Source: a virus. Taken from it: 64,000 nucleotides of DNA. Under the pieces are notes generated by a model. The model was given only the letters and a program-made list of their open reading frames with translations, was not told where the DNA came from and did not search any database. Numbering within the stretch: position 1 is the first letter of the stretch; each line of letters opens with the position of its first letter. The DNA is taken from positions 1-64,000 of the IMG/VR virus record IMGVR_UViG_3300026519_000012; one strand, written 5' to 3'. Position numbers and translations under genes: made by a program. Below, piece after piece: positions 32,825 to 60,925 of the stretch.

Positions 32825-33473
32825 GCTCTTTAACACAATATAGCAGGATATGAGACAGAATAACACAATATATGTATTCATGTCAATAACAATAACAATT
32901 TCATGACACTAACATTAAATCATAACCTTTGCACTAAAATAGTGCATAATTACCTAACAGTGCACTAAAATGAACCAAAATAGCACAGCTTAATTACTAA
33001 TTAAATCAAGCACTTACAATACATGCACCAAAATAGTGCAAAAATGCCTAACATTGCACCATAACAGTGCAATAACATAACAAAATCGCGACCCCCCTCT
33101 ATAATTTTAAAATCGTAATTACAGGATCCACAACCCTAATACGCCGGTTTACTAACTGTAAAGTGATCGGCCAATTACGATTATTTATTTGCGCATTACG
33201 ATTCTGCAATGAGGGGGGGGGTTGCTAAAACTGTTAAGTTTTTACCTTAACACTAACAAAATCAGGCACTTACATTTTTTACGTGTTAGAAAATACTAGC
33301 TTTTTTAATAATAGCATATAAATCAATAACTTAAAGACCTAACATGTTAGTTAGTCCTAAAAAATAACTAACACCCCTAACGTGCATCTGTTATGTTATG
33401 CTATGTTAGTTCCATTGGCATTTTATTCCAATATATACATACGCCCACACCCTCACCGCACACAAAATAATAT

Positions 33474-45585: not shown

Positions 45586-46976
45586 CTAAACGCGTACAAA
45601 TACTTCGTTATACGGACGCCGCAACCTCTGCATTTGTTGGGCGCGTGGGCGAATTGTCAGTAAATTTGACTAACAAAAGCCTAGTTGTTCATGACGGCAT
45701 AAACGCCGGAGGGCAAGAACAAGCAAGGGTTGATTTTGTTAATGTCGATGGTGTGCCAGCGTTGACGCAATTAAGTGCTGGTGTGGGTTCGATTGCAGGA
45801 TTAACTGTGGGTGCTAATCGGCTTCTATATACTGAATCTTCTGATTCCTACACATCAACGAGCTTGACCTTGCTAGGACGTAATCTTTTAGCAGGAAATA
45901 ATACAGCCGCTATGCGTGCAACGTTGGAAACTCCTGGGCTGGCTGTCTCGAATACGTTTCTTAATCAGCATAATGAATTTCGTGGTCGTATTGAAATGAA
46001 CAATCACGGTGTTACTCCTGCAAGTTTTGTTCATCATGATGACAACGCGGATGTTGATAAAAAGCGTTGGGGCATTACAACTTCAGGAACGGCGAACGGA
46101 GACTTACATTTTCAAGCGCGCTCGGATGATGATATTACCCGTGTTGATTATATGGTATGTACTAGAGGTACGGGTGTGTCTGTATTTAGGGTTAATTTGC
46201 TTGCGGGGGAAGTACAGGCAAATGGTAGCAATATTGTTACAGAGGCTAGAAATAATAATTTTGCAGGGCAGCAAAGAATTACTAACACTGCGCCTACCTT
46301 GTTTTTACATGAGACAGGCGTAGCGGCAGATAGTGGGAAATATTATTTTCAGGTGGATAGCACTAACCTGACTTTGTTTTTGATGAATGACGCAGAAAAT
46401 GCATCAACTCCAGTAATGCAGTTTGCTAGAACGGGTATAAATAGTGATGCAATTGATTTTACTGCGGATAATTTTCGGATTAATGGTGAGTCGGTTGCTA
46501 CACAATCACCTGCCGTGCCCGGCTATGTCAAAGGCAAAGCGGTTTATGTATCAGCTACAGGGGACAACGGGTTAGGTATAAACATTGCTTCTAGCGCCGT
46601 TATGGATGCATGGGAGTCTTACGGCCCGACAGGTTCCGGCGCGAGTAACATCATGGCGGATCTAGACGTACTCCCGGCAGGAGCTACTTGGGTAGAGTTA
46701 TCTATACGATTGCTTATCCGCCGGATTTCAGCTCCCGATACATTAGTGGCTGTTTACGCACGGCCTACAGGTAGTACGGCTAATGGGATACTCACTTCAG
46801 TGGTTCTTCATGAAGCGCAGACGGATGCTGGTGAGATAAATGTGTATTTTCTACATCGGTCTATAAAGGTTGCGCTCGATGCGCAAAACCGTTTTGAACT
46901 TAAGTGGGATATCCCTGCATCTGGAACGGTACTATCCCAAGGTATTATAGCCATAGTCACAGGCTTCGGTGCCTAA
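45582..46976 (+). CDS. tail fibre of phage B, Mtd-like N-terminus with shared tip
   Basis: A 464-residue fibre. Residues 1-45 (VQILRYTDAATSAFVGRVGELSVN ... LVVHDGINAGG in outline) match the short N-terminal module seen in major-tropism-determinant-like and many other phage fibres, which likely attaches to the tail. A different middle follows. From about residue 225 it is homologous to the phage A fibre, and from base 46400 the two are identical. So A and B carry different attachment domains but the same receptor-binding tip. Confidence 0.8.
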   Translation: MTKRVQILRYTDAATSAFVGRVGELSVNLTNKSLVVHDGINAGGQEQARVDFVNVDGVPALTQLSAGVGSIAGLTVGANRLLYTESSDSYTSTSLTLLGRNLLAGNNTAAMRATLETPGLAVSNTFLNQHNEFRGRIEMNNHGVTPASFVHHDDNADVDKKRWGITTSGTANGDLHFQARSDDDITRVDYMVCTRGTGVSVFRVNLLAGEVQANGSNIVTEARNNNFAGQQRITNTAPTLFLHETGVAADSGKYYFQVDSTNLTLFLMNDAENASTPVMQFARTGINSDAIDFTADNFRINGESVATQSPAVPGYVKGKAVYVSATGDNGLGINIASSAVMDAWESYGPTGSGASNIMADLDVLPAGATWVELSIRLLIRRISAPDTLVAVYARPTGSTANGILTSVVLHEAQTDAGEINVYFLHRSIKVALDAQNRFELKWDIPASGTVLSQGIIAIVTGFGA

Positions 46977-46979
46977 ATA

Positions 46980-47174
46980 ATGAACCAAGATAAAATAGAA
47001 ATAGCAAAAAACGTAGGCGACGCGGTAGTAATACCGACTGGCGTTGTGGTGTCAATAAGCTATTGGATCACTGATATTATCAATCCATTGATAACAGCGC
47101 TGATAGGCTTAATGACTATAATTTGGCTTTTTTATAGGATCAAAGAGAGTAAGCGCATCACGAAGGCACCTTAA
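46980..47174 (+). CDS. holin-like small membrane protein (X copy 2)
   Basis: Identical in product to the 64-residue two-span protein at 14267-14461. In this copy it follows the phage B fibre. The downstream 16-residue frame (47174-47224) is also repeated. Confidence 0.65.
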   Translation: MNQDKIEIAKNVGDAVVIPTGVVVSISYWITDIINPLITALIGLMTIIWLFYRIKESKRITKAP

Positions 47175-47231
47175 TGAGCGACCTTATTATTACATCGCTA
47201 TCATATAAACCCGTTACAAGGTAGGAATGAA

Positions 47232-47696
47232 ATGTTGATCGATAAATTTTTCATAATAGGGCTGCCAAGGAGTAGAACCTACTGGCTAAGTCAGTTTTTT
47301 GGCTGTCTCCACGAAGGCGTTTATCACTACCCAGATTACAGGGATTTTCTTAAGTCTGACCATACTGGTGATAGCACTACTTGTTATTTGCAGATAAAGG
47401 ATCTAATCAAGGATGAGAGAAAAGTAATCATACATAGGGATATTAAAGATGTTGGAGATTCTCTTGTTGAGCTGTTTGGGAAGTTTGATTGTAGCTTTCT
47501 GAAGGATATTGAAAAAGAATTACTAGAAGAAGATGGGCTTCATGTCCAATTTGATGACATTAGCTCACGGTTAGAGGAGATATGGGATTACTGTAGAAGC
47601 GATGAATTCCCAAAAGAAAAAGCACTAAAAATGGACGACGTGATAATGGAAAACCATTTTTTAATTGGAGAGGTAAAGAAGCTTGTCATCTTATAA
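47232..47696 (+). CDS. sulfotransferase-like P-loop protein (X copy 2)
   Basis: Identical in product to 14519-14983: PAPS-loop GLPRSRTYW and the HRDIKDVGDSL motif are both kept. It overlaps the oxygenase by 14 bases as in copy 1. Confidence 0.65.
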   Translation: MLIDKFFIIGLPRSRTYWLSQFFGCLHEGVYHYPDYRDFLKSDHTGDSTTCYLQIKDLIKDERKVIIHRDIKDVGDSLVELFGKFDCSFLKDIEKELLEEDGLHVQFDDISSRLEEIWDYCRSDEFPKEKALKMDDVIMENHFLIGEVKKLVIL

Positions 47697-48252
47697 GAAG
47701 CTTGATTTAAGGCTTAATGTCCAGCCGCTCAAGGAAGCCTTGGAGCGCAGGAGCGACTTATTCGGCAAGTATGATTACCGGGCGACTTCTGAAGGATCGC
47801 CACACTCGGAAATGAAAGATATCTGGGTGAGATATAAAGACGTTGCGCCACATATAAAATCGGGAGATTTCTCTAGCTTCGCTAACGAACATGACTCTAT
47901 CTGGTATCAGGTATACCGGGATCTACCGGAGACAAAAGAGATTATATTTTCTGTAATGAACGCAGTAAATGGCGAACGACTTGGCGGCGTGTTAATCACA
48001 AAATTACCCCCCGGCGGTAAGATAAAGAAACATGTTGACGGTGGGTGGCACGCTGAGTATTACGATAAATATTACGTGCCTGTTAAAAACGAAGACGGCG
48101 CTATATTTTCGTTTGAAGACGGGGTCATCGCCCCGGCGGAGGGTGACGTGTACTGGTTTGATAATTCTAAACCTCACTGGGTAGAAAACAACTCTGATTC
48201 GGAGAGAATTGCTATGGTTATTTGTATAAGAACTGATGGAGTAGAAAGCTAA
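47683..48252 (+). CDS. 2-oxoglutarate oxygenase, Asp/Asn hydroxylase-like (X copy 2)
   Basis: Identical in product to 14970-15539, with iron ligands HVD and KPHW and the downstream Arg intact. It ends one base into the next gene. Confidence 0.72.
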   Translation: MSSYKKLDLRLNVQPLKEALERRSDLFGKYDYRATSEGSPHSEMKDIWVRYKDVAPHIKSGDFSSFANEHDSIWYQVYRDLPETKEIIFSVMNAVNGERLGGVLITKLPPGGKIKKHVDGGWHAEYYDKYYVPVKNEDGAIFSFEDGVIAPAEGDVYWFDNSKPHWVENNSDSERIAMVICIRTDGVES

Positions 48253-49688
48253 TGCCTTGGGGAGCAGCAGCGGTTATAGGTGGCGCGCTAGTATCCGGCT
48301 ACGCATCAAATCGCGCGGCAGGAAAAGCGGCAGACGCATCACAATACGCCACTGACAGCGCTAACAGGCTATCTGAGCGGCAGTTCGATATGGTACGTGG
48401 CGACACGGCACAAGCAAGGGCTGCAGGTGGTGAGGCGGGTGCCGAGCTATCACGATCGCTAGGCCTTAGGACGCCGATCCCTGAAGCTTTTAACAGGCAA
48501 GCGGCAATCAGAGAGGAGATCAGGAGGTTACGCGATCGAACGGGGGACGAATGGCGAAACTATGGCTTCACTGGGCAGTACGCTATTGAAGATGAGCGCT
48601 CTAGGCAGATCAGAGAGCTTGAGAATGAAAGTGATAATTTAACGCTTTATGACGAAGCCCAGCCATTAGAAGGCGAAGTCCTGCCACAGTTTGGCGTTGA
48701 ATTTAACTATAGCGGCGAAGGGCCTCAGTTTGAATACGGCGGCTCTCAGCCGGAATTTAATGATGCTAGTCGATTAAGCCAGTTTCAGAATCAGGGTGAG
48801 AATCTGCAAAGTTTTGAAACGGATCAAGAGGTTTCGCAGTTCGGCCAAGGTGACCGGTTCGAGTATGACCTCGAAGGCGATGCTGGCTATCAGTTTGCTC
48901 GTGATGAGGCAATCAAGGCCACCGGACGAGTCTCTGCAGCACAAGGCAAGCGCGGCAGTGGTAACCGGCTGGCAGAGGTCGCAGACCGCGTGACGGGCGT
49001 TGCATCGCAGTATGCTGACCAAGCTTTTAACCGACAGGTTAGAGCTTCCGCTGAGAACTACGGCCGAGACGTAAATGAATTCGGCCTTCAGCGCGCGGGT
49101 GATACTGAAGCGTACGGGCGAGAGCGTGGCGAATTCGCCATTGATTATGGCCGAAACATTGATCAGTACGAGCGCGATATCGGGGCTTTCAACGTAAACA
49201 CTGGAGTGGCAGATCGCAACTATGGCCGAGAGCTAACGAGGTACGAAATCGCTCGAGGAAGAGAGGGTGAAGGCTATAATCGGGCAAATCGCCTCTATGA
49301 AGTCCGAACGGCTGAGGATAACCGAGAATATCAACGCGCGGGCGATGAATATAATCGTGGTTTCACAAGGTTTGGTGTTGAGACTGATCAGAATCGGGAG
49401 CTATACGGCCGTCGCCAAGATCGATTAAATCGACTTGCAAGTATGGCGGGAGCTGGGCAAACGGCAGTCAGTCAAAGTGCAAGCGCAGGTAGCAACTATG
49501 TCAATGCTGCCAGCAACAATCTGATGGCAAATGCTCAGAATCAGGGGAATGCCGCGATGGTTAAATATCAAGGCCTAAACAATGCAGCACAAGCTGGGAT
49601 CTCTAACATGTTAAGTTACAACCAGCAGCAGCAAAATAACCAGATGATGCAACAGTGGCTGAACCAGCAGCCGGGGGCGCTAAGATGA
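48252..49688 (+). CDS. internal/injection-type virion protein 1 (X copy 2)
   Basis: Identical in product to 15539-16975, including the Tyr-Gly-Arg repeats and Gln-rich end. In phage B it would work with a capsid, portal and nozzle unrelated to those of phage A, which implies that the ejection set is portable between tail types. Confidence 0.65.
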   Translation: MPWGAAAVIGGALVSGYASNRAAGKAADASQYATDSANRLSERQFDMVRGDTAQARAAGGEAGAELSRSLGLRTPIPEAFNRQAAIREEIRRLRDRTGDEWRNYGFTGQYAIEDERSRQIRELENESDNLTLYDEAQPLEGEVLPQFGVEFNYSGEGPQFEYGGSQPEFNDASRLSQFQNQGENLQSFETDQEVSQFGQGDRFEYDLEGDAGYQFARDEAIKATGRVSAAQGKRGSGNRLAEVADRVTGVASQYADQAFNRQVRASAENYGRDVNEFGLQRAGDTEAYGRERGEFAIDYGRNIDQYERDIGAFNVNTGVADRNYGRELTRYEIARGREGEGYNRANRLYEVRTAEDNREYQRAGDEYNRGFTRFGVETDQNRELYGRRQDRLNRLASMAGAGQTAVSQSASAGSNYVNAASNNLMANAQNQGNAAMVKYQGLNNAAQAGISNMLSYNQQQQNNQMMQQWLNQQPGALR

Positions 49689-50845
49689 GCGGCTTTAAGG
49701 TATTTGATTACAATCAGGCCATCGGTGGTGCAAACCAGAGCAGCCGAAATAGACTTTCGATGATGCAGGGTATGCAGTCGATGACTGATCGCAGGGAAGA
49801 TCGGCAATATAATCGGCAGAGTCAAAACCGACTATCTGAAATCAGGGACAATCAGGAGAACCGCGCGCAGGCTCAATTCGACCAGAAACAGCAGATTGAG
49901 AATACAAAGTTTTTCTACCAAGGAATGACCGAAGTCGCCAGAGATCCATCGCGTGCCCAGTATTGGGCGGATGAACTTAAGAAGCGTGGTATCGCTGATT
50001 TTGACATCTCAAAAGGGACCCCAGAGCAATTACAGCAAGGGGCGGCTAAGCAGGCAGATGCACTTCGTAAATCATTGGAGGCCATTGGTGAGATTGCGCC
50101 TGAGCCACGGGAGAAATACGGGCAACCTGTTGCGGGCGTGGGGCCGAGTGGTAATCCCGAATTTCAGCGCTTTGGTGACCGAGGTAGCGCCCAGATTGTC
50201 AATGATTTCGTGCCGAGCAAGAAAGTCCCGCTGGTGAGCATAAATAAGGGCGAAGACAAGTACGCGACGGAGAGAATGAAGTTGCAGGCTCAGGGTATTA
50301 ATGACTTAGGGAAAAATGCTAGCGCGGCGTACAAGTCATCCATGGCGATGGATCGGTTTACCAAGGCATCCGAAAAAGGAACAGAAGGCGGTGCCCAGCC
50401 AGTTATAACGGCGGTAAAGAACCTTTTAACCTCTTTTGGGTATGATGACAAACAGTTGGCGGAAGTAAGAATCATGGAGCAGGCGATCAATGACGTGCTT
50501 GCAAATAAGATGGCAACATTGGGTGCCCGCGGGCTGACTGACAGTGATATGAATATACTCAAGGCGTCGCTACCTAGAGTTGCTACTGATCGCAATTCGA
50601 GGCTCGAAGTAGCTCGAATATTGAAAATCCTCAACGATTTTGAAATTGATGAGTATATTGCCGAACTTGATGAAGAGAAGAGAATTAACCCTGAGCTAGC
50701 TAAGCGGATAATGGAACCGAGGTGGCTTAGGTTTTATAAAGCAGAAAAGGCCAAGGAGGCGAAGGGCAAGGATGGAGCGCCGCCGCCCTCAACCGATCAG
50801 CCCCCCCCCTCAATTGATGACCTGGTGAATAAATATGCCAACTAG
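49685..50845 (+). CDS. internal/injection-type virion protein 2 (X copy 2)
   Basis: Identical in product to 16972-18132. The start at ATG 49685 overlaps the previous stop. Pro-rich end and central helices as in copy 1. Confidence 0.6.
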   Translation: MSGFKVFDYNQAIGGANQSSRNRLSMMQGMQSMTDRREDRQYNRQSQNRLSEIRDNQENRAQAQFDQKQQIENTKFFYQGMTEVARDPSRAQYWADELKKRGIADFDISKGTPEQLQQGAAKQADALRKSLEAIGEIAPEPREKYGQPVAGVGPSGNPEFQRFGDRGSAQIVNDFVPSKKVPLVSINKGEDKYATERMKLQAQGINDLGKNASAAYKSSMAMDRFTKASEKGTEGGAQPVITAVKNLLTSFGYDDKQLAEVRIMEQAINDVLANKMATLGARGLTDSDMNILKASLPRVATDRNSRLEVARILKILNDFEIDEYIAELDEEKRINPELAKRIMEPRWLRFYKAEKAKEAKGKDGAPPPSTDQPPPSIDDLVNKYAN

Positions 50846-52649
50846 AGAGCAGCTCGAATCAGCGCTAATAAATGCTGATAAGGCTGGAGACATTAACGCT
50901 GCAAAGCAACTTGCAATGGCAATCAAGCAAGGAGGTGAGATAGTCCAGCCACCTCAAGAGGTGCCACCCAAAGACCCAGCTGAAGTGTACTCAGGATTCA
51001 TACAGGGACTTAGAGATCCGGTTGACGGGCTTGCTCAGCTTTTATACGAGGCATTGCCAGAAGGGGTTAGAGAGTCAGGGGACGCTTTAAATAATTGGCT
51101 TTCTGAGAAAACAGGTTTTATTGAAAAAATCCCTGAAGGTGGGTTTACTCAATTGCTAAAAGACAAAGAAGCGAGGTACCAAGCCGGTCGAGTTAAAGAA
51201 GGAGACGAGGGCGCTGATCTGGACAGAATTGGAGGAAACTTCGTTTCAATGGCGGTTCCGGGCGCACAAGTTCGCGCAGTCAGCGCGCTGGGAAAAGTCG
51301 CTCAGGGAGCGGCTTTGGGCGCAGGATATGGCGCGGCGTTGCCAACCTATGGTGATGAGTTCTGGGTAGAAAAAGGCATGCAGGCCGCGATTGGTTCTGC
51401 TGCCGGAGGCGCCCTATCGGCCAGCGGTGTTGCCGCTGGAAAAGCCATCGATGCAGGGAAGCGCATTTTACGACCTATGACTTCTGGCGGAAGAAAGGCT
51501 GATGTCACTGACACTTACCAGACTTTAGCCGGGAGTGAAAAAGATAAAATTATTAGCGCGCTAAAATCAGCAAAAAAAGGGCAAACATCAGCGCAGGCAA
51601 TCGCCAACGCTAACCGGGGAAGTAACGATGTATTTGGTGCGTCTATTGTCCGCCTAGAGAAGGACTTATCAAAAAAATCCCCGATTACCGACAAAATGCG
51701 AAGTGTTTACAAAAAACAATCAATGGATCGAAAAAGGTCTCTTGATAAGATCGCAAAAACAGATGGTGACCTTGCCGAAGCAATAAAACAAAGAGATAGC
51801 AAGGCCGCTCCTTACTATGATGCGGCTCGGAAGTCCAGCAATAGCATCAATGTCGAAACGCTAAGAAATAGCATCGATGGAGTTATAAGAGACAATATAA
51901 ACGATACTGCGATCACTATTCCCCTTAAAAATATCCAGAGAAAGCTAAAGGATGCAACGCCAAGAGGGCTTATTTCAACGTCAAGCCATATCAAGCGCCT
52001 AATGAACAAAACAATAGACGGGAAAAATGTCTATGACAAAAAAGTGCTGACTGAGATCAAGGAAGCGCTGGATAAGAGTATTGAGAAAAGCGTTGCTGAT
52101 TACGACATTGCTAGAGAGATTATCAGGAGAGAATCTGTCCCCATAAATCGAATGAAAGTCGGCCAAGAGCTTAAAAAATCGCTTATTGATGCCACCGAGC
52201 AAGAGAAGGCACGGCCGTTTGTGAACGCACTAAGGGAGGCGCCTAGAACAGTTAAGCGCGCCACCGGGTTTACGGGCAATAACACGCTTGAAAACATTTC
52301 GAGCAGGGCCGAAATGGAGACATTTTATAAAATAAGGGATGAGCTGCTAACTGACGAGAGCATGAGTAGACTTGCAAAAGGCGTCGACGGTGTTTTATCT
52401 GACATTTCTACGCAGTCAAAACCTCAACTGCCAAACGCTCTTGTCAGAGAGATTATGATAGCCAATCATCTGTTGAAAAGACTGGCGCACAAAGATTATG
52501 GAGCCGATTACCAGCGAATGATGCTTGACCTGCAAAAAAACCCAAAGTTGCTTGCAAAAGTGCTTCAGACAGAAAAGGACAGGAAGGTTCAGTCAGCAGT
52601 AATCAGATTGGTTGGTGAAGGCGCCGTTGTTTCAGCAGTGCCGCAATGA
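50835..52649 (+). CDS. internal/injection-type virion protein 3 (X copy 2)
   Basis: Identical in product to 18122-19936, with the same Gly/Ala-rich segments. It is the last rightward gene of module B; the weak terminator is repeated at 52660-52693. Confidence 0.6.
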   Translation: MPTREQLESALINADKAGDINAAKQLAMAIKQGGEIVQPPQEVPPKDPAEVYSGFIQGLRDPVDGLAQLLYEALPEGVRESGDALNNWLSEKTGFIEKIPEGGFTQLLKDKEARYQAGRVKEGDEGADLDRIGGNFVSMAVPGAQVRAVSALGKVAQGAALGAGYGAALPTYGDEFWVEKGMQAAIGSAAGGALSASGVAAGKAIDAGKRILRPMTSGGRKADVTDTYQTLAGSEKDKIISALKSAKKGQTSAQAIANANRGSNDVFGASIVRLEKDLSKKSPITDKMRSVYKKQSMDRKRSLDKIAKTDGDLAEAIKQRDSKAAPYYDAARKSSNSINVETLRNSIDGVIRDNINDTAITIPLKNIQRKLKDATPRGLISTSSHIKRLMNKTIDGKNVYDKKVLTEIKEALDKSIEKSVADYDIAREIIRRESVPINRMKVGQELKKSLIDATEQEKARPFVNALREAPRTVKRATGFTGNNTLENISSRAEMETFYKIRDELLTDESMSRLAKGVDGVLSDISTQSKPQLPNALVREIMIANHLLKRLAHKDYGADYQRMMLDLQKNPKLLAKVLQTEKDRKVQSAVIRLVGEGAVVSAVPQ

Positions 52650-52768
52650 TCCGCCAAGCATTACTTTAAAAGTAACAGTTAGCTTTTTATTTTGTTTAAT
52701 ATTGCCGACTCAATCGTATTTATAGCCGATCCACCCTTAATCATATCAGACGTAACGTTGTAATGGCG

Positions 52769-52831
52769 TTAAAATGTTTGCCGCTCTAATTGTCTAAGCG
52801 CGGTATAAAACTGTTCTTCTATCTCGGTCAT
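52769..52831 (-). CDS. 20-residue frame coupled to the lipase stop (copy 2)
   Basis: Same ATGA overlap and same product as at 20056-20118. Confidence 0.35.
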   Translation of the reverse strand: MTEIEEQFYTALRQLERQTF

Positions 52832-53508
52832 AATCTTTGATCCTCAAACCACTGCTGCATACCAGTATCATAATTGCTAATGCTGGTGTGGTAATTAATA
52901 TAATCGCGTCCTAATAAACCATTAACCCAATTTTTAATTTTAGTCCAGCGTGATCTGCGATTGATAACGTATGTAATATCAGGGTTGTAATATCCGGGAG
53001 GCAGGTGCTCAATCGGGTCGCCGTCATTGATAAAATGTACATTACGCTCCGGGTAATCAGCAGGTTGATAGCTGTCAACAAATGCCCCCGGTGATGCAAA
53101 CGTACAGCACTGTGATTTAACACCAATATCAAACAGATCCGTATGTAAATACTGAGCTAACGCACCGCCGCGTGAGAATCCAGTGATGTAAATATTTTGT
53201 ACCTGCTCATTATAATTCATGAGCCAGTTTTCAATGCGCTCGAACATTACGTCATAGCCGCGAGTAAACCCATGCATACGGCCATCAGATGTTGCGTGAG
53301 CGTCGATATTGCGCAACCAGTCCAGATCATCATTGCTGCCTCTAAATGCGATTACAACGCCTATGGCGCAATCCACGACTAGCACTGATTCGCCTAAGCC
53401 GTCAGCCTCGTTAAATTCAGTAACAAATTTTATGCCCCGAACCGGTGATTTAAACCCTTTCGCTAATTTCATAACTTGCCAGATTTGCTCGATTTCGTTA
53501 TTTGTCAT
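52828..53508 (-). CDS. class 3 lipase family protein (X copy 2, A-type N-terminus)
   Basis: A 226-residue protein with the Ser112-Asp164-His207 triad of copy 1. From residue 34 on it is identical. Before that Lys17 replaces Gln, Asn33 replaces Lys and Thr2 replaces Asn. Here it is the last gene of the leftward early operon of phage A, 96 bases downstream of the radical-SAM gene. This suggests early or middle rather than late expression and weakens a simple lysis role. Confidence 0.8.
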   Translation of the reverse strand: MTNNEIEQIWQVMKLAKGFKSPVRGIKFVTEFNEADGLGESVLVVDCAIGVVIAFRGSNDDLDWLRNIDAHATSDGRMHGFTRGYDVMFERIENWLMNYNEQVQNIYITGFSRGGALAQYLHTDLFDIGVKSQCCTFASPGAFVDSYQPADYPERNVHFINDGDPIEHLPPGYYNPDITYVINRRSRWTKIKNWVNGLLGRDYINYHTSISNYDTGMQQWFEDQRL

Positions 53509-53604
53509 TTATACAGTCCTCTCTGCTGATAAACCGGCGCAGCAATCTGCGCTAATGTGCGTGTTATACGCCATATATCCATGTACTTACTGTTATATTC
53601 CTAA

Positions 53605-54606
53605 TCACGCTATCTGCTTAATTTTAAGCTCGCTGCCGCCTAGAATCGCATTGCCGCAAGTAATCAAGCCATCCTCCTCGTCTTGTGAGGGAATAAACAC
53701 AAGAGTATCGAATCCCGCAGCCGTGCAGCTATCTTCTGGCTTTTTGTAGGGTCGGTACGTTTGATACCCGTCTACCGTTTGAATACCGTTCTCGCGGCAA
53801 GCAGAATTATTATGGATCGGAGTTATCTTCACCATCCATTTATCAACGTCAAAAAGATTGGCAAGCTTTTCACCGTCCACTTCGTTACCGGAGGCGTAAG
53901 CTATATTTAAGCAATATTTGCGCCCTATAGGGCTCTGTAGGCTTTCTAGCTGATCCGCAATATACCCAAGCGTATAACTGCTTCCGCCAAACATTGCGGT
54001 TCTTTGTTTCTCTGAGCTAGTGTTGACGCTAATCTGTAATCCAGCCTGACCTTTGAATAGATCATTCTTTATGGATGCCCATTCGTGGATTCTCTCGAAC
54101 GTGTGTTTGTATTCTGGGCACATCGTGGTAAGAACTGGGTGGATAACTTCAATCCTTACTCCTGTTTCATCTTGGATTTGGCGTTTATTATTTGCCAGCC
54201 ACTCGGAAAACTTAAACACATCGATATTAAAAATAGGCTCGCCCATTCTTGCAAAGTGAATGTTCAGGCGGTCTGTGTATTTTACGTTTTCGTAGGCCTT
54301 TAGTCCCGTATAAAACTGAGACTTTAAATCGTCAAAACTAACGTTACCTGAAAACTTAATGTTTGGTACGTCGCAAAAGGTGCATTTCATTATGCAACCA
54401 TATTGAGTAGATAGGGTGATAACCCACTTCTCTTGCAGCGGCATAATCTCGCCATTCTCAACACCGTTAAGCTCGCGGGTGTAACCTAAAAAGTCGGCTT
54501 TTATGTTTTTGCGTTTCCCGTAATCACCAATGGAAAGGGTTTCTAATTTTCCTTTGGCGTAGTCATCAACAATCAAATACCCCGTGGGTAAGAAAATTTT
54601 ATTCAT
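53605..54606 (-). CDS. radical-SAM protein of the RlmN/Cfr methyltransferase type
   Basis: A 333-residue protein. The 4Fe-4S motif is GCIMKCTFCD (Cys71, 75, 78, CxxxCxxC). ARMGEPIFN matches the GEP element, LQISVNTSSEKQRT and RKYCLNIAYASGNEVDGEKLANL match the core, and EDGLITCGNAI carries a Cys317 equivalent to the methyl-carrier Cys of RlmN. The second catalytic Cys of RlmN, seven residues before the cluster, is Thr here (WVITLSTQYGC). RlmN methylates A2503 of 23S rRNA and a tRNA adenosine; a related RNA-modifying role is likely but altered. It sits at the end of the attC array. Confidence 0.75.
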   Translation of the reverse strand: MNKIFLPTGYLIVDDYAKGKLETLSIGDYGKRKNIKADFLGYTRELNGVENGEIMPLQEKWVITLSTQYGCIMKCTFCDVPNIKFSGNVSFDDLKSQFYTGLKAYENVKYTDRLNIHFARMGEPIFNIDVFKFSEWLANNKRQIQDETGVRIEVIHPVLTTMCPEYKHTFERIHEWASIKNDLFKGQAGLQISVNTSSEKQRTAMFGGSSYTLGYIADQLESLQSPIGRKYCLNIAYASGNEVDGEKLANLFDVDKWMVKITPIHNNSACRENGIQTVDGYQTYRPYKKPEDSCTAAGFDTLVFIPSQDEEDGLITCGNAILGGSELKIKQIA

Positions 54607-54633
54607 GGTAGATTAGCCTTCCTCACAAATGGA

Positions 54634-54739
54634 ATATAACAAGGCAAATCCACTCCGACAAAATAAAGCGGTGCTTGCCCTGCGTTCTTTTTTAGCTCCT
54701 CACGCCGCTTTATTTCGCGGGTGATTTGCGACGTTATGT
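54634..54739 (+). other. attC site 1 of the cassette array
   Basis: R'' box ATATAAC (54634-54640) and R' box GTTATGT (54733-54739) flank a long imperfect hairpin: CAAATC pairs with GATTTG and AAATAAAGCGG with CCGCTTTATTT. On the + strand the left arm has extra C and T bases opposite nothing on the right arm, as the extrahelical bases of integron attC sites. It separates the radical-SAM gene from the 113-residue cassette gene. Confidence 0.8.
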
Positions 54740-54740
54740 G

Positions 54741-55082
54741 TCAAATAAACAATACACTCAACAGCGTCTCAAAATCGCCGCCGCACAAAATCTTCTTTTT
54801 ACCTATATACGGCCCAGAAACTTCGTAATCGTCGATTGATATTCGTTTTATTTTATAGTCGCCAATACAGATATTTACCGATGGCTCAATGTCACAATTA
54901 AATCGCCATATTTTTTGAGTTTCGTCAAAAGAAATATCAATATTATCGGCAACAAAGCCACGGTCAAATAACGCGCTGTAAACCTCTATTGGCTCAATCT
55001 CGGCATCTTTAGTGCCCTCAGCGTCCATCAAGTGTTTTTGGTCTCTTACCTCTAATTCTAGTTTTGCGAGTAATCCACACAT
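54741..55082 (-). CDS. cassette 1 gene, 113 residues, unknown
   Basis: The start ATG (55080-55082) is inside the R'' box ACATAAC of attC 2, and the TGA stop begins two bases after the R' box of attC 1, so the gene fills the cassette. The product is acidic with mixed strands (DIEPSVNICIGDYKIKRISI, YEVSGPYIGKKKILCGGDF). No family recognised. Its 3' half survives as a fragment in phage B at 21492-21671. Confidence 0.7.
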   Translation of the reverse strand: MCGLLAKLELEVRDQKHLMDAEGTKDAEIEPIEVYSALFDRGFVADNIDISFDETQKIWRFNCDIEPSVNICIGDYKIKRISIDDYEVSGPYIGKKKILCGGDFETLLSVLFI

Positions 55083-55178
55083 AACAATTAGCTCCAGCGG
55101 ACACAGTACCGCGCCGCGTTTTTAGTTAAATTTAAGCTCCTGTGCGGCGGTACTGCGCCGCTGAGCATGGCGTTAGAT
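55079..55178 (+). other. attC site 2
   Basis: R'' ACATAAC, R' GTTAGAT. Arms GCTC-C-AGCGG-A-CACAGTACCGC and, on the complement of the right arm, GCTCAGCGGCGCAGTACCGC pair with exactly one extra C and one extra A on the left arm. These are the two extrahelical positions known from attC of aadA cassettes. Confidence 0.88.
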
Positions 55179-55517
55179 AGCTCTATCATTGTATTCATCA
55201 ACTGCATCAAGCGGACTCCTTAGCTCCATCTCCTCAACATCACAAACAATGAGCTTATAAACCAGTTCATCAGGAGCAAAAACCAGTCTTTTTGTTATCC
55301 CTGTTTTAGGGTTTTTGCAGAATGCAATTTCAATTTGCCTCTCCATCACAGATGTTATTCGATCCATGTCTATTGACTCTACCCCTAATACCATTCCTTC
55401 TGGATTGAGCGGGTCATTAGAAATAGTCAGCCCACCGTCATCATTAACATTTTCAGTATCCATGCCGCCTTCAGCAATACTGGCGGTTAATGCATTAGCT
55501 AAGCTTTTATCAATCAT
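55173..55517 (-). CDS. cassette 2 gene, 114 residues, unknown
   Basis: The stop TAA is the R' core of attC 2 read on the minus strand. The start ATG 55517 follows CGGAG. The acidic N-terminal half (EGGMDTENVNDDGGLTISND) and a compact C-terminal half (QIEIAFCKNPKTGITKRLVF) suggest a small soluble protein. Family not recognised. Confidence 0.7.
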   Translation of the reverse strand: MIDKSLANALTASIAEGGMDTENVNDDGGLTISNDPLNPEGMVLGVESIDMDRITSVMERQIEIAFCKNPKTGITKRLVFAPDELVYKLIVCDVEEMELRSPLDAVDEYNDRAI

Positions 55518-55543
55518 AAGGCAACTCCGTAATTAAGTTCGCA

Positions 55544-55630
55544 ATCTAACAAGTAATTCCAGTGGACGCTGGTAGTCCAGCGCTTCGCGCATGCCGCATT
55601 CCGCGCGCCACTGAATAAAAGTCGTTAGCT
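55544..55630 (+). other. attC site 3
   Basis: R'' ATCTAAC, R' GTTAGCT. Left arm ATTCCAGTGGACGC against right-arm complement ATTCAGTGGCGC: again one extra C and one extra A on the left arm. The central part folds into smaller hairpins (CGCTGG/CCAGCG). Confidence 0.85.
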
Positions 55631-55882
55631 GTCAAACGAAATAGCACTGATTGTCTTAATCTGCCGATCAAGCGATTTCAACTTCCTAATTCTAATCTCG
55701 TCAGCCCTAAGCACTGCGTCCTCTCTACATTTGTGCCAATCCCGCCCCTCACCGTGCAAATAAACCGCACAAGAACATTTATTTTTAGGTATAACAATCA
55801 GAGAGTTGTTAGCATCCATAGGGTCAATCTCGTGCTCAATAATGCCCTCTGTTAAACAATATTTCGTGCTCCAAATTTTCAT
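55625..55882 (-). CDS. cassette 3 gene, 85 residues, unknown
   Basis: The stop TAA lies in the R' core of attC 3. ATG 55882 is preferred over GTG 55891 because GGAG lies 8 bases upstream of it. The opening KIWSTKYCLTEGIIEHEID is a pattern seen in small hypothetical proteins of phages and gene cassettes. It has a short hydrophobic core and a basic C-terminal helix (RADEIRIRKLKSLDRQIK). Function unknown. Confidence 0.7.
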   Translation of the reverse strand: MKIWSTKYCLTEGIIEHEIDPMDANNSLIVIPKNKCSCAVYLHGEGRDWHKCREDAVLRADEIRIRKLKSLDRQIKTISAISFDS

Positions 55883-55901
55883 CTTAGTCACTCCGTCGCA
55901 C

Positions 55902-55999
55902 AGCTAACAATCAAAATTCACGCGGACAAAATGCCGCGACGTTTTTACTAAATTTAAATCTCATCATTGGCATTTAGCCGGTGATTTTGGGCGTTATGC
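55902..55999 (+). other. attC site 4
   Basis: R'' AGCTAAC, R' GTTATGC. Left arm CAAAATTCAC ... AAATGCC pairs with GGCATTT ... GTGATTTTG, with extra bases only on the left arm. Confidence 0.85.
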
Positions 56000-56000
56000 C

Positions 56001-56294
56001 TTAAATTGAATTAAGTATTTTAATGCCGTTATAAAACGGAGATTCTGATTTTTCAAATTGCTCTTTCGCATTAAGCATTTTCTCTCGCCATTGCTCGCGT
56101 GTTTGCAATGCCAGCAAAATTTGGTCACGACTTAATTCGTCGAATTCTTCCCGCAGTTGTTCCATGTTCATTTCTGATATTGATACTTTTCTATACTCAA
56201 CGCAACTATCCTTTGAGTGCTGTGGATAAATAGGGCATGTTTTATTTGCTTTTGAGCAGAAAAAACATTCTTTGCTTAGTTTAGGCTCAGGCAT
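56001..56294 (-). CDS. cassette 4 gene, 97 residues, Cys-rich N-terminus
   Basis: The start ATG (56292-56294) is formed by the R'' box GCATAAC of attC 5, and the stop is one base after the R' box of attC 4. The N-terminus has CFFCSKANKTCPIYPQHSKDSC, a four/five-cysteine arrangement fit for zinc. The rest is a charged helix (EQLREEFDELSRDQILLALQ). No family recognised. A longer frame from 56318 would run through the attC and is rejected. Confidence 0.7.
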   Translation of the reverse strand: MPEPKLSKECFFCSKANKTCPIYPQHSKDSCVEYRKVSISEMNMEQLREEFDELSRDQILLALQTREQWREKMLNAKEQFEKSESPFYNGIKILNSI

Positions 56295-56390
56295 AACAAT
56301 TAGCTCCAGCGGACGCAATACCGCGCCGCGTTTTGTAGTAAATTTAAAGTTCTCAGTGGTGGTACTGCGCCGCTGATCATGGCGTTAGGT
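56291..56390 (+). other. attC site 5
   Basis: R'' GCATAAC, R' GTTAGGT. Left arm CTCCAGCGGACGCAATACC against complement ATCAGCGGCGCAGTACC: extra C and extra A as in sites 2 and 3. Much of the site is near-identical to site 2, so the two cassettes likely have a common source. Confidence 0.88.
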
Positions 56391-56603
56391 GGCTTGTGGT
56401 TGCTCTACGGCTGATAGTATAAAGCTGGCTCTACAAATCACTTCCTCGCCAACTCCCTTTACGTTGTAATCACGTATGGCCGTTGTTTTCCCACCGCAAA
56501 CAATCCCGGTTATCCATGTGTCGCACTGTTCCGTTACCCGCATCATAAAAGTTCCTTTTCGTTGCGCTGTGATTAAATATGTTTTTCCTGTTTCAATGTT
56601 CAT
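56385..56603 (-). CDS. cassette 5 gene, 72 residues, unknown
   Basis: Ribosome site GGAGGA before ATG 56603. The stop TAA is the R' core of attC 5. A small beta-barrel-like protein (KTYLITAQRKGTFMMRVTEQ, WITGIVCGGKTTAIRDYNV) without motifs. It is the size of many cassette-encoded proteins of unknown role. Confidence 0.7.
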   Translation of the reverse strand: MNIETGKTYLITAQRKGTFMMRVTEQCDTWITGIVCGGKTTAIRDYNVKGVGEEVICRASFILSAVEQPQAT

Positions 56604-56631
56604 TTTCTAATCCTCCAGTGTAATTCCCGCA

Positions 56632-56750
56632 ATCTAACAAAACAAATCTACGCGGACAATGTGCAGCGGTGTTTGTTTGCGTTGGCAGTTAAGTTAAAGT
56701 TCGTCTCAGTGCGCTTGCATTCCACAAATAAGTCAATTTAATCGTTAGGC
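56632..56750 (+). other. attC site 6
   Basis: R'' ATCTAAC, R' GTTAGGC. Pairing is weaker than in the other sites (GGACAATGTGCAGC with GCTTGCATTCC), so this one may be partly decayed, but boxes, length and place fit. Confidence 0.65.
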
Positions 56751-57035
56751 ACACAGTTCGCATTCACCATCACAGCAGCGCTCTTCATGATTCAGCAGTC
56801 CGCGCATAATATTCTCCTCGGCATTTTTTAAAAGCTCTTTTAACTCAGATGCGTTTTTACATTTCCCGCATTCCTTATCGATAATAGCGCTTATAACTTG
56901 GGCAATAGTTGCGTGATAGGTTATTTTTTTCTTCCGTTTTACATTTCCGTTTCTGTCTTTCCCGTCCCGCCATTGGTATAACTGCCACCCCGATGTATCT
57001 CGTTTAAAGCTATAATTTTCGTTTAATTTGATCAT
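56745..57035 (-). CDS. cassette 6 gene, 96 residues, Cys-rich C-terminus
   Basis: ATG 57035 after AAGGAAG; the stop TAA is the R' core of attC 6. The N-terminus (YSFKRDTSGWQLYQWRDGKD) and basic NGNVKRKKKITY segment suggest nucleic-acid binding. The end EERCCDGECELC is a possible metal site. Its leader carries the tRNA-like fragment at 57057-57100 on the same strand. Family not recognised. Confidence 0.7.
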   Translation of the reverse strand: MIKLNENYSFKRDTSGWQLYQWRDGKDRNGNVKRKKKITYHATIAQVISAIIDKECGKCKNASELKELLKNAEENIMRGLLNHEERCCDGECELCA

Positions 57036-57056
57036 TTTGTCTTCCTTAAAAAAAAA

Positions 57057-57100
57057 TGGTGGGCCAAGGCGGGCGCATTAACCAGTTATGCTATTGGCCC
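57057..57100 (-). other. tRNA-like fragment with CCA end
   Basis: Read on the minus strand: a 7-base arm GGGCCAA, TA, then a D-arm GCAT-AACTGGTTA-ATGC, a short GCCCGCC, then TTGGCCC pairing with the 5' arm, A and CCA. Acceptor stem, D-loop GG and CCA end are correct for a tRNA, but anticodon and T arms are missing, so it cannot decode. Eight or more T follow, then the ribosome site of cassette 6. A deleted tRNA or a tRNA mimic. Confidence 0.6.
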
Positions 57101-57108
57101 TAAAAAGC

Positions 57109-57219
57109 GCCTAACAATTGCATCCACCCGGACAGTCCTACGCGGTGCTCATTTGTGCCAAAAAAGCCTGGCACAAGCCTCCACGGCTTCGGCCTGCGCG
57201 GTTATGCGCGACGTTATGT
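57109..57219 (+). other. attC site 7
   Basis: R'' GCCTAAC, R' GTTATGT. GCAT...ACC...CAG on the left arm pairs with the right arm with extra bases on the left. The centre has a further hairpin TTGTGCC/GGCACAA. Confidence 0.75.
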
Positions 57220-57220
57220 A

Positions 57221-57430
57221 TTAAATATCTTTTAGCCATGATGTGTGATAAACAACTTGACTACCATTCTTAAACTCTAGCGTTACGTCACCATTAGAAT
57301 CAACTCCGCGAGCAATAGCTTTCCGGTTTGAATAGCTGTCTTTATACATTATTTGGTATTTTTTGCCCGGCTGAATATCATTGCGCGAGAGGCAATTATC
57401 AGTGTTTAGCATTACTCGCTCCTTTGCCAC
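57221..57430 (-). CDS. cassette 7 gene b, 69 residues, unknown
   Basis: A small protein whose stop begins one base after the R' box of attC 7. NDIQPGKKYQIMYKDSYSNR and GDVTLEFKNGSQVVYHTSW read as an SH3-like small barrel. It overlaps the other gene of this cassette by 19 bases, the only two-gene cassette here. Confidence 0.65.
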   Translation of the reverse strand: MAKERVMLNTDNCLSRNDIQPGKKYQIMYKDSYSNRKAIARGVDSNGDVTLEFKNGSQVVYHTSWLKDI

Positions 57431-57588
57431 TCACGACTAATTGAATTCTTATGCCAGCCCTCTTGTTCAAGCTTCGCTTCTGCCATGTCTACCAGCAGCG
57501 CAATATCGCACTCATCTCTAACAGAGCCGCAGTCTTTCATGACGTTCACCTTGTCACAGATAGCGGCGATTAGCTCTAAATTGTCCAT
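57412..57588 (-). CDS. cassette 7 gene a, 58 residues, unknown
   Basis: ATG 57588 is chosen because GGAG lies 7 bases upstream. An acidic helical protein (LELIAAICDKVNVMKDCGSV, ALLVDMAEAKLEQEGWHKN). The first ATG available in the attC box is followed at once by TGA, so translation must begin here. Function unknown. Confidence 0.6.
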   Translation of the reverse strand: MDNLELIAAICDKVNVMKDCGSVRDECDIALLVDMAEAKLEQEGWHKNSISREWQRSE

Positions 57589-57608
57589 AATCAATCTCCA
57601 ATTGAGTC

Positions 57609-57696
57609 ACATAACAAGTGCTTACACGCGGACAGTCTTCCGCGTCGTTCGCTCCGCTCTCTATGCCCCAGCCTGCCGGTGAAGCTGTCGTTAGCT
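57609..57696 (+). other. attC site 8, outer end of the array
   Basis: R'' ACATAAC, R' GTTAGCT. Left arm GCTTACACGCGGACAG against complement GCTTCACCGGCAG shows extra A, G/C and A bases on the left arm only. Beyond it are about 58 bases with nothing recognised, then the SSB gene. Confidence 0.85.
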
Positions 57697-57754: not shown

Positions 57755-58252
57755 TTAAAACGGGATATCATCATCAAAGTCGTCAAAGTTCTGTGATCCG
57801 CCTTGCGACGGTGCAGCACTCTGACGTTTGTTGTCGGCACTGCTCGGCGCACCCCCGCCTTGATTTTGATGCTGGTTTTGGTCGCCCCCATATTCACCGC
57901 CGCTTGAGCCATCACGGCTATCCAGCATCTGCATATTGTTAGCGACGATTTCAGTCGTGTAGCGATCTTGACCGCTGGTTTTATCCTGCCATTTACGTGT
58001 ACGCAGGCTACCTTCCACATATACCTTAGAACCTTTCTTCAAGTATTCACCGGCGACCTCACCTAAACGATTAAAGAAGACGACGTTATGCCATTCGGTA
58101 CGCTCTTGCTTCTCGCCGGTCTGTTTATCTTTCCATGACTCGCTCGTGGCAATCGTCACATTAGTGACCGCTGAACCACTCGGTACATAGCGCACATCAG
58201 GATCTTTACCTAGATTACCAATCAGGATTACCTTGTTAATACCTTTTGCCAT
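57755..58252 (-). CDS. ssb: single-stranded DNA-binding protein (phage A)
   Basis: A 165-residue SSB. The OB-fold core starts [20 protein letters not shown] and includes [22 protein letters not shown] and [15 protein letters not shown], all family hallmarks. A Gly/Gln-rich linker leads to the acidic tip DDFDDDIPF used to recruit partner proteins. Length is close to E. coli SSB (178). It works with the RecT and exonuclease just upstream in the same leftward operon. Confidence 0.95.
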
Positions 58253-58359: not shown

Positions 58360-59985
58360 TTACTCGGCTTTTGATTCAACGAAGGCAACATGCGGGACAT
58401 TGCCGGTTGAAATCATTTCGGCAATTTGTTTGGCCTGTTCAACGTTGATGGCCGTGTTATCAACTAAGTATTTCGCGACCTCTGCGAGGCTCGTTCTCCG
58501 CACTGAGCATGTCACTTTCAGGTTCTTCTTGGTTTGGACTGGCGCTGCGCTGCTTGACTGCGCTCCGCCATTTAATGGCGACTCTGTTGCGTCTTTGATG
58601 GCGGCTGCAGTTTGCTGATTTTCCTCTAAATCGATACGCTCATTTTCAAGCTTCTGCTGCTCTTCCTGTCTGATTTTCTCGCGCTCAGCTTCGATGCGCT
58701 TTTCTTCGGCTGCTTTGTGCTCTGTGATTCTCAGCTTAATGACGTTAACAAGATCATCGTTATTTTTAAGTACGAGTGTTGCAGCGTCAGAAAATAGAAA
58801 AGTGTAATCAGCGGCTAACTCCCTTAATGAGTCAAGGTTGGTTTGTATTTTGTCAGCAATTTCATTTGATTCAATCTTTGCTCTAGCCAGCTCCGTATCA
58901 ACCGCATTTCGTTGGCTCGACACCGTTCGCTTGCCTTTTACAGCGCCTGCAAAGTCAGTCGTAATAGCTGGCATATATGGCTTTCCAATGCGTTTATTTA
59001 GACTTTCAATGTGGGTGCTCATTGCAGATTTTCCAGCCTGCAAAATCTCAAAGCGAACAGCGTCTTTTCTTGCTTGAACCAGTTTTTTTAGATCAAGGCG
59101 GGTTGCTCTGGCTTGCGCCTTGATATCGTCAATGGTTTTGAATAGCTCATCGATGGTGGCCGTTTGGCTGAGTGCGTGCTCCTTTGTCGCTTCTAGGCGC
59201 TTTTCTACTTCACCGCACCATTTGACAGTTTTCTCGGCATTGGAAAAATCTTCGTCCGTTTGAAGATCTTTGTTGATATTGTCAAAGACAGCTAGCGCCG
59301 TTTCTCTAAATTCCATCAGGTTTGATGACGTTACCATGCCACTTATTTCAACGCGCAATGCTGGGAGCGTTTCAGGGGCTTTTCCGATAACTTCCGGCGC
59401 AGTTTCGACGTGCTGATAGTTAGCGACATCTTCATCTAGCTGTGCCCATCCGGCCAAAAGAGATTTTCTGTCATCAGGATTTAGCGTCATCACAACATGT
59501 ACGGTTTTTTCTTCCGTGCCGTCCGTGACCATATAAAGGCATTTTTCAGCACCAACACAAAGCTGCTGGACAACTTGCCAATAATCCTCAAGGGGTACAA
59601 TTCCATTGCGAACATCATCGGCTTTTTCATCGTTCCACTGCTTGCACTCCCAAGCATAGTCTTCTTCCATCGTTATCCCATCATAACTGGCAAGTAAATA
59701 ATCATCGTCATCAATGGCTGTTACAGGATAAAGCTTTCTGCCGATAATGGATTCAGCAATTGGACGTGATTCCGCCTCGACTTCATGTCCTTTTTTGAAG
59801 ATTACATTTTGCACATAGCTATCGATCTCTTTCTCGCTACCAGTGGCCATAATTTGAATCAATTCGTTACGACTGGTATTTTTGCTAACACCCATCATCA
59901 CTGGGGCCATTGATGCCGAGTGTGGATATTTTCCGCGAATATCATGCCACGCCTGCTCGCCCTGAACTACATTAAGAATTTTCAT
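58360..59985 (-). CDS. YqaJ-type recombination exonuclease with coiled-coil extension
   Basis: A 541-residue protein from ATG 59985 (GGAAGG upstream). Residues 1-200 are a lambda-exonuclease/YqaJ-like nuclease: QGEQAWHDIRGKYPHSASM at the start, then YLLASYDGITMEEDYAWECKQW with the D...ExK catalytic set and YWQVVQQLCV. The second half is a long charged helical region (about 230-480) and a short C-terminal domain. The fusion makes it over twice the usual exonuclease length. It produces 3' overhangs for the RecT next to it. Confidence 0.85.
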   Translation of the reverse strand: MKILNVVQGEQAWHDIRGKYPHSASMAPVMMGVSKNTSRNELIQIMATGSEKEIDSYVQNVIFKKGHEVEAESRPIAESIIGRKLYPVTAIDDDDYLLASYDGITMEEDYAWECKQWNDEKADDVRNGIVPLEDYWQVVQQLCVGAEKCLYMVTDGTEEKTVHVVMTLNPDDRKSLLAGWAQLDEDVANYQHVETAPEVIGKAPETLPALRVEISGMVTSSNLMEFRETALAVFDNINKDLQTDEDFSNAEKTVKWCGEVEKRLEATKEHALSQTATIDELFKTIDDIKAQARATRLDLKKLVQARKDAVRFEILQAGKSAMSTHIESLNKRIGKPYMPAITTDFAGAVKGKRTVSSQRNAVDTELARAKIESNEIADKIQTNLDSLRELAADYTFLFSDAATLVLKNNDDLVNVIKLRITEHKAAEEKRIEAEREKIRQEEQQKLENERIDLEENQQTAAAIKDATESPLNGGAQSSSAAPVQTKKNLKVTCSVRRTSLAEVAKYLVDNTAINVEQAKQIAEMISTGNVPHVAFVESKAE

Positions 59986-59986
59986 A

Positions 59987-60925
59987 TTAGCTACCTTCCT
60001 GTTCCCACGCGTCAATTTGATTTTGTTGCTCAGGTGTTAGTTGCATTGCAGTAAGCGCAGTGCTGATAACGTCCTTGGCTGATTTCTTTCCTGATCGCAC
60101 TAATGCCTCGCAGTCTTTTGCCAGCTCCTGAAATTGATCGTCAGTGCAAGCGATAAGGGTGTCGCCTTGAGTGGGCGCGCCCTCATCACCGCCTCTATCC
60201 ATGTCAATAACAACCCCGCCTTCTATAATAGGGTTCCGGCCTGCTTCCGCTGCATGGCTAACAGTGATTGCATTGGAGACCTCAACCGAGCAAGGCATAT
60301 ATTTCAGCACTTGAAGTAGCGGTACTTTTCTGCAATACATTTCCCAATCTCGATGGCTGTAATGGCTCCTCCCAACTTTATTGTATTTATCACGGTGCTT
60401 CCGCAGCTTTGCTACTGTCCAGAGTTCAATGACGGGCATTTTCGAATCCTTAACCCAGCCAATAGCGTAGGCGTGAGTCATATCGTTCGGATCATCAAGA
60501 TCTGTTTCATTGTGAATAACCAGGTCACGTCTGGCACCATCGGTGAATGTGTAATCCTGATCCTTAAATATAACGCCGGTGTAAACTGTGGCGCGACCAC
60601 TCCGTGACACAAGATCAACAAGCCCCTTCCAGCCCGGTACAAATGTGCAGGTGGTTTTATAGGGGATCAGATACCCCGCGCCATTAACTCCGGGTTCTAA
60701 GCCCAACTGCCCGGCTGTCATTAATGATGCGGCGATACTGTTGACATCGCACTTTTGTAGCTTTGGTGATGTGCTAAAGGCCGTTAATGCCAGCCGGGTC
60801 ATCCTGTCGGCTGTCATGTGCTTAGGCAGGGCTAGTTCAAGTTGAGGTTTCAGCTTTTCCATAAAGCTGCTGAGTTCCGCAACTGGGGATTTCCGCTTTG
60901 CTGCCACTTGCTGTTGAGTAGTCAT
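59987..60925 (-). CDS. recT: RecT single-strand annealing protein
   Basis: A 312-residue RecT family protein. Typical stretches are RLALTAFSTSPKLQKCDVNS, SLMTAGQLGLEPGVNGAGYL, CTFVPGWKGLVDLVSRSG and HAYAIGWVKDSKMPVIELWT. It anneals complementary single strands coated by SSB and forms a recombinase pair with the exonuclease, one base downstream. E. coli RecT is 269 residues. The pair gives phage A strong homologous recombination ability, relevant to the repeat X. Confidence 0.95.
   Translation of the reverse strand: MTTQQQVAAKRKSPVAELSSFMEKLKPQLELALPKHMTADRMTRLALTAFSTSPKLQKCDVNSIAASLMTAGQLGLEPGVNGAGYLIPYKTTCTFVPGWKGLVDLVSRSGRATVYTGVIFKDQDYTFTDGARRDLVIHNETDLDDPNDMTHAYAIGWVKDSKMPVIELWTVAKLRKHRDKYNKVGRSHYSHRDWEMYCRKVPLLQVLKYMPCSVEVSNAITVSHAAEAGRNPIIEGGVVIDMDRGGDEGAPTQGDTLIACTDDQFQELAKDCEALVRSGKKSAKDVISTALTAMQLTPEQQNQIDAWEQEGS

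Follow-up and report, generated by a model that had tools for sequence, protein, structure and literature searches.

An integrase-less array of attC sites with inverted cassette genes at the end of a phage early operon

The stretch of DNA described here, referred to as the window, comprises 64,000 nucleotides of a virus (IMG/VR record IMGVR_UViG_3300026519_000012, positions 1 to 64,000 of 64.75 kb). It carries eight attC-like sites of integron type (s1 to s8), which span positions 54634-57696 and all lie on the + strand, among small genes that are all encoded on the - strand. Placed last in a phage early operon, the array is a CALIN (cluster of attC sites without an integron integrase), a kind of element already reported from phages. 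An earlier note, made from the sequence alone, had placed seven cassettes with eight genes between ssb and a radical-SAM gene. The ssb side is as it described; the radical-SAM gene is itself a member of the array, which has eight cassettes and nine genes when the cassette at 53593-54733 is counted in. The features of the array and of the adjoining operon are as follows (aa, amino acids; bits are scores of the covariance model R3 unless otherwise indicated).

53592-53598, + strand: GTTATAT, left border of the array and of the apparently swapped radical-SAM cassette
53605-54606, - strand: radical-SAM family gene (phrog_24834, 2e-107), inverted cassette gene of s1
54634-54739, + strand: attC s1, attC of the radical-SAM cassette; three extra left-arm bases; 38.3 bits; three-bulge detector 13/14
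54733-54739, + strand: GTTATGT, R' of s1 and right border of the apparently swapped cassette
54741-55082, - strand: 113-aa cassette gene; ATG start within the R'' box of s2
55079-55178, + strand: attC s2; two extra left-arm bases; 45.3 bits (model R2, 22.7 bits); strict detector match
55173-55517, - strand: 114-aa cassette gene; stop is the TAA in the s2 R' box
55544-55630, + strand: attC s3; 40.0 bits; strict detector match
55625-55882, - strand: 85-aa cassette gene, phrog_22725 (4e-16); stop is the TAA in the s3 R' box
55902-55999, + strand: attC s4; 19.7 bits; three-bulge detector 13/14
56001-56294, - strand: 97-aa cassette gene; ATG start within the R'' box of s5
56291-56390, + strand: attC s5; 38.9 bits; strict detector match
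56385-56603, - strand: 72-aa cassette gene; stop is the TAA in the s5 R' box
56632-56750, + strand: attC s6; R'' and R' boxes and an L''-like CGCGGAC motif kept, right arm unpaired; no covariance model match
56745-57035, - strand: 96-aa cassette gene, weak phrog_154 match (3e-4); stop is the TAA in the s6 R' box
57109-57219, + strand: attC s7, weaker; 24.0 bits
57221-57412, - strand: 63-aa gene called by the gene finder, first of two in the s8 cassette
57412-57588, - strand: 58-aa gene called by the gene finder, second of two in the s8 cassette
57609-57696, + strand: attC s8, last site ahead of ssb; 26.1 bits; three-bulge detector 13/14
57755-58252, - strand: ssb, located 5' of the array in the operon; 89% identity to the ssb gene of record G001
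58360-60015, - strand: large early-operon gene 5' of ssb (551-aa open reading frame), exonuclease-like by context; 58% relative in L001
59987-60925, - strand: RecT-like annealing protein (phrog_148, 4e-50)

The covariance model R3 was trained on 39 attCs from bacterial contigs and on no phage site. Over the 64 kb window at E <= 10 it gave exactly seven matches, s1 to s5, s7 and s8, all on the + strand, with E-values from 1e-9 to 0.014. The earlier note had proposed such a check and expected eight + strand hits; seven were obtained and nothing else, s6 being missed. The training loci were fetched with a motif from s2 and s5, which favours the scores of these two sites and not those of s1, s3, s4, s7 and s8. 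An earlier model, built from 16 bacterial sites that were not chosen by the s2/s5 motif, ranked s2, s5 and s3 as the top three in the 64 kb. With its filters off, a 54-position model lost long-loop sites through its length limit, and the default filters were preferred. A strict detector of a single bulged A beside the L'' pairs matched s2, s3 and s5 on the + strand and nothing on the - strand, with an expectation of 0.007 matches per dinucleotide shuffle of the array region. A detector of three bulged left-arm bases returned s1, s4 and s8 as the best in the window (13 of 14 positions, all on the + strand). A plain stem-score scan was too unspecific for site calling, and an Rfam search at the gathering threshold matched nothing.

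By form (an R'' box ending in AAC, an R' box starting with GTT, an imperfect stem and extra bases in the R''-L'' arm), s1 to s5 and s8 are clear, s7 is weak and s6 is degenerate. The boxes and imperfect stem that had been ascribed to every site are evident in the six clear ones, whereas s6 keeps its boxes but lacks right-arm pairing and folds no better than shuffles; to judge from its sequence it is probably a decayed site. The eight sites lie where the earlier note had put them, the extra C and extra A that it saw in the left arm of s2, s3 and s5 are present, and the extra left-arm bases that it saw elsewhere amount to three in s1, s4 and s8, a form also found in bacterial attCs. The bottom-strand folds of s1 to s4 are stable. 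Seven model-supported sites inside 3.1 kb in one orientation define the array as a CALIN. It is not a complete integron, as a search of the whole 64.75 kb record with TIGR02249 (the intI family model) gave no match, in agreement with the claim that the window has no integrase gene of its own.

In a standard integron array, the genes lie on the strand on which the attC reads from R'' to R'. None of the eight attC sites of the window has a sense cassette gene; the attCs sit in a phage operon with genes antisense to them. This inversion, overlooked by the earlier note, separates the array from an ordinary captured bacterial array. Polarity was compared using one gene finder with Shine-Dalgarno scoring for all sets, checked on bacterial arrays (longest open reading frame calls were dropped as noisy on small genes). 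Bacterial loci had 41 sense and two inverted sites whereas phage loci had 62 inverted and 14 sense sites (Fisher p 2e-17, the sites not being independent of each other). By locus, the ratio of inverted to sense was 0:20 in bacteria and 33:4 in phages, with four ties. Sites called by covariance model followed the same trend (66 inverted versus 18 sense flanking genes, the superintegron-like locus L145 excluded). The type-1 stem pattern also brought up twenty viral contigs that, L015 apart, are mostly GC-rich and combine a similar stem with deviating outer boxes; with their gene direction unsettled, the counts do not include them. Several inverted genes are certified by homology, namely pyrophosphatase, phrog_419 and phrog_8389 genes in the G016 prophage, a DUF5662 gene in G003, an RNA ligase gene in G017 and a phrog_18399 gene in G001. 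In G017 the arrays occur on both genome strands with gene direction flipping along, and in G003 the array is opposed in direction to its enclosing structural operon. These arrangements indicate that inversion is more than a consequence of local operon direction.

The attC boxes also punctuate the genes. Of 57 inverted genes that adjoin an attC, 33 use the TAA of the R' box as stop codon, and the starts lie mostly 10-30 bases past R''. Every cassette gene of the window is preceded by a good Shine-Dalgarno sequence. The bottom strand of s2, CTGGAGCTAATTGTTATG, reads CTGGAG...GTTATG and so supplies both the Shine-Dalgarno sequence and the start codon of the 113-aa gene; the bottom strand of s5 does likewise for the - strand 97-aa gene, and the same CTGGAG...GTTATG arrangement recurs in attCs of G003 and G016. 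At L056 (10810-10930), L057 (16658-16785) and L058 (15693-15813), the loop of the attC contains both the start of the inverted gene and its Shine-Dalgarno sequence, and the N-terminus of the protein is thus encoded by the attC left arm.

A cassette-sized replacement is visible within the record. A direct repeat of 7.35 kb (13538-20888 and 46251-53596, 99.35% identity) brings two strain copies of the same region together. The copies diverge exactly after TACTTACTGTTA, whose G is at 20884 and 53592, parting right after the GTTA of the left border. They converge again exactly at ACGTTATGT, at the R' box of s1 (G at 21494 and 54733), and are then 98.9% identical over 180 bases. Between the borders, the copy beside the array has about 1.14 kb with the radical-SAM gene and s1, and the other copy has the following.

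20884-21494, + strand: alternative segment of the second strain copy, GTTA ... 96-aa open reading frame at 21107-21397 (- strand) ... GTTATGT; 0.61 kb in place of the radical-SAM gene and s1

Since both borders fall on GTT boxes, the difference reads as a single-cassette exchange, and the radical-SAM gene with s1 looks like one swapped cassette. The array would therefore begin at 53592, with the radical-SAM gene as cassette cargo. The GTTATAT at 53592, a fixed border in both copies, is an unproved candidate for an attI-like or attG-like site. Near this border, upstream of the lipase gene, a weak attC-like hairpin at 53469-53570 could represent a site in decay or belong to an attI-like region. 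The record as a whole holds two portal and two major head genes that differ between its halves, and it is either a joining of two phages with a common ejection-protein/lipase module or a chimera. Other repeats of the window are a perfect 68-base direct repeat with 75-base spacing (2843-2985), tandem repeats of about 78 bases with 80-90% identity, within a gene region of the first phage half (13193-13495), and an AT-rich intergenic stretch (32780-33450) with repeated GCACTAAAATAGTGCA-like and TTAGTTA motifs. The last is flanked by oppositely transcribed regions and could be a replication origin with iterons.

Similar arrays are found in the independent records G001, G003, G016 and G017. Judged by the 551-aa early gene, G001 is the closest relative; it has inverted attC cassettes at the same place, downstream of ssb. 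An attC of the G016 prophage has 87-88% identity to s2 and s5, and one in G003 has 76-77%; s1 is 89-91% identical to two attCs of G017. The best bacterial attCs have 65-71% identity to s1, s2 and s5 (for s1, in a bacterial set that was not gathered with the motif of s1 itself). Three of the window's cassette proteins compared with named phages by tblastn gave at most one weak match, and a search with the window's ejection protein found zero relatives in viral contigs. A homologue of the radical-SAM gene (43%) lies inside an intI-bearing phage array, at 8411-9397 of L130. Many metagenomes also yielded GC-rich viral contigs (L061-L079) with a common GCTCCAGCGGAC...GCCGCTGAGC stem and outer boxes such as GCCGAAC/GTTCGGC rather than TAAC/GTTA, possibly a further attC-like family.

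A phage intI gene that is linked to the cassettes and runs in their direction is absent from the record, and is present in the G016 prophage and in many IMG/VR records. The G016 prophage resides in a gammaproteobacterial metagenome-assembled genome, beside a tRNA gene and downstream of pheT and ihfA, and has the gene order inverted cassettes, intI, xis-like gene, phage integrase. The IntI encoded there reaches 363.6 bits (cut-off 265) and retains the invariant columns of integron integrases. When this protein alone was the query against viral contigs, zero relatives were found; a later IMG/VR scan with an IntI alignment found at least 564 stretches that encode IntI relatives. Among the best 80 of these, to which the locus-level analysis applies, 41 have at least one strict attC no further than 6 kb from intI, in most cases on the other strand and directly 5' of intI, and the cassette genes at these 41 loci are mostly co-directional with intI. 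Mostly co-directional genes 5' of intI were seen at 55 of the 63 loci with sufficient sequence, and all 20 records tested exceeded the cut-off of the integron-integrase family. Terminase, portal or head genes lie downstream of intI or within about 6 kb of it in L100, L112, L113, L130, L161 and L164 (viral contigs were typed by PHROGs, the Pfam terminase model being too narrow). In a tree of IntI proteins, the G016 protein falls in a 31-row group made up entirely of phage sequences (support 97/81), and there are several phage IntI lineages. A single origin of the inversion was dropped because the tree demands many label changes.

The form of the attCs, the polarity of the genes, the borders of the swap and the phage intI genes of relatives are observed. 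Taken together, they make it probable that this terminal CALIN of the early operon belongs to a pool of inverted integron cassettes circulating among phages. We infer that an integron integrase from a co-infecting or resident phage, or from the host, would bind the folded bottom strand of the attCs and that cassettes would be exchanged at the G|TT of the R' box. As bottom strand and coding strand are the same, an incoming cassette would become part of the operon and be transcribed from the phage promoter. Translation signals would come at the cassette ends, with the Shine-Dalgarno sequence near R'' (at type-1 sites within the attC, the ATG being in R'') and the TAA stop in R'. Transcription may expose the coding strand, which here is the recombinogenic bottom strand. 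The likely benefit is fast trading of small accessory genes among phages. The earlier note's central claim, an integrase-less attC cluster in a phage early operon, withstood the covariance model test and is matched by the replacement bordered at G|TT. Its suggestion that the phage would use host integron machinery is not borne out so far: the closest attCs found lie in other phages rather than in the bacterial arrays examined, and many phages of the same layout encode intI.

Several observations weigh against the pool reading. The record has no intI and its attI is a candidate only; s6 is degenerate and s4, s7 and s8 are weak. Both states of the swap occur in one record that joins two phages, which leaves the assembly open to some doubt, and the alternative segment has no clear attC. 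Sense cassettes occur in some phage arrays (TJE1, Rctr41k, L120, L145 and L119), so inversion in phage arrays is common and not universal.

Alternatively, the phage could have acquired part of a chromosomal integron of its host by recombination; the array would then be an ordinary captured bacterial CALIN with no special phage biology. Captured arrays do exist in phages (Vibrio phage Va_90-11-286_p16 and Shewanella phage M16-3; PMC9892861), with sense cassettes on reanalysis, and the R'', L'' and R' motifs are common to the window sites and bacterial attCs. However, every cassette gene of the window is inverted, against 41:2 sense in bacterial arrays, s1, s2 and s5 are far closer to attCs of other phages than to the bacterial ones examined, and the cassette genes that can be assigned belong to phage families. 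This origin is therefore unlikely, and a host-derived CALIN was considered and not kept. Slightly less plausible again is that the hairpins act at the RNA level, as translation starts between cistrons, as processing sites or as weak terminators, and have only a likeness to attCs with no remaining capacity to recombine. The start signals supplied by the bottom strands of s2 and s5, the frequent stops in R' and the stable folds of s1 to s4 would suit such a role, but left-arm bulges and R boxes that fit the bacterial attC model would be superfluous for it, and it leaves aside the variation between strain copies bordered at GTT and the intI beside the same layout in many phages. Plain terminators were likewise considered and not kept. 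An assembly artefact, with the array or the swap arising by misassembly of two phages, could be imagined from the doubled portal and major head genes and the 7.35 kb repeat in a single record, but it is very improbable as the array lies within one co-directional operon distant from the joins, similar arrays occur in four independent records, and a random misjoin would not hit GTTA at both ends.

Beyond this record, the layout is common to many phages, some of which encode their own integron recombinase, and this points to a gene-swapping system run by the phages themselves. We lean, with moderate confidence, towards a widespread phage-specific integron class. In such a class the cassettes would be inverted, the bottom strand would be the coding strand of the operon, attC boxes would punctuate the genes, with starts near or within R'' and stops in R', and phage IntI would exchange cassettes across phage families; the window would be an integrase-less member that draws on the pool. 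Integrons are viewed as bacterial gene-capture devices, and only a few attC clusters and captured integrons have been reported from phages. Should the inverted class prove real, phages would possess an integron system of their own on a large scale, with a separate cassette pool and gene layout, which would account for the shuffling of small accessory phage genes and be a source of new integrases and attC sites. How the bacterial and phage pools stay apart would then become a question, as a cassette with the inverted layout of one pool would be silent in the other. Public data allow a direct check of the polarity.

Among known systems, a survey of 10,705 phage genomes reported 17 CALINs and a few captured integrons, and IntI1 was active on five of six phage attCs tested, recombining them into attI1 (Qi et al. 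2023, PMC9892861). The phage CALINs of that survey (Tetrasphaera phage TJE1, Pseudoalteromonas phage H101 and Polaribacter phage P12002L) are, like the array described here, attC clusters without intI. The survey reports neither an inversion of genes relative to attC nor a wide class of phage intI, and integrons are there only of bacterial origin and in temperate phages. It describes the H101 cassettes as one-directional. On reanalysis, H101 has attC-like sites at 76529, 77308 and 77931 on the + strand among - strand genes, so that its array looks inverted too, whereas TJE1 is sense. In the open-access literature, which excludes subscription papers and preprints, no description of inverted phage integrons was found; the variant is apparently undescribed and widespread, with many relatives that carry a phage integrase. 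The captured integrons of Va_90-11-286_p16 and M16-3 are also attC arrays in phage records but differ in their standard polarity, with divergent intI and mostly sense cassettes. Virus Rctr41k (KX853513; L089, 4680-10120) is alike in having a phage-encoded intI (383 bits) and an attC array. The gene annotated there as xerD is a true integron integrase with a sense attC array at about 6641-10100, an integron apparently unrecognised in the annotation of the record; unlike the inverted layout, its intI is co-directional with sense cassettes that lie downstream of it. Sedentary chromosomal integrons of gammaproteobacteria and others (L016-L053) share the attC architecture, with R'' and R' boxes, left-arm bulges and tandem small cassettes, but their genes run along the attC and away from intI, and their attCs are at most 71% identical to s1 to s5.

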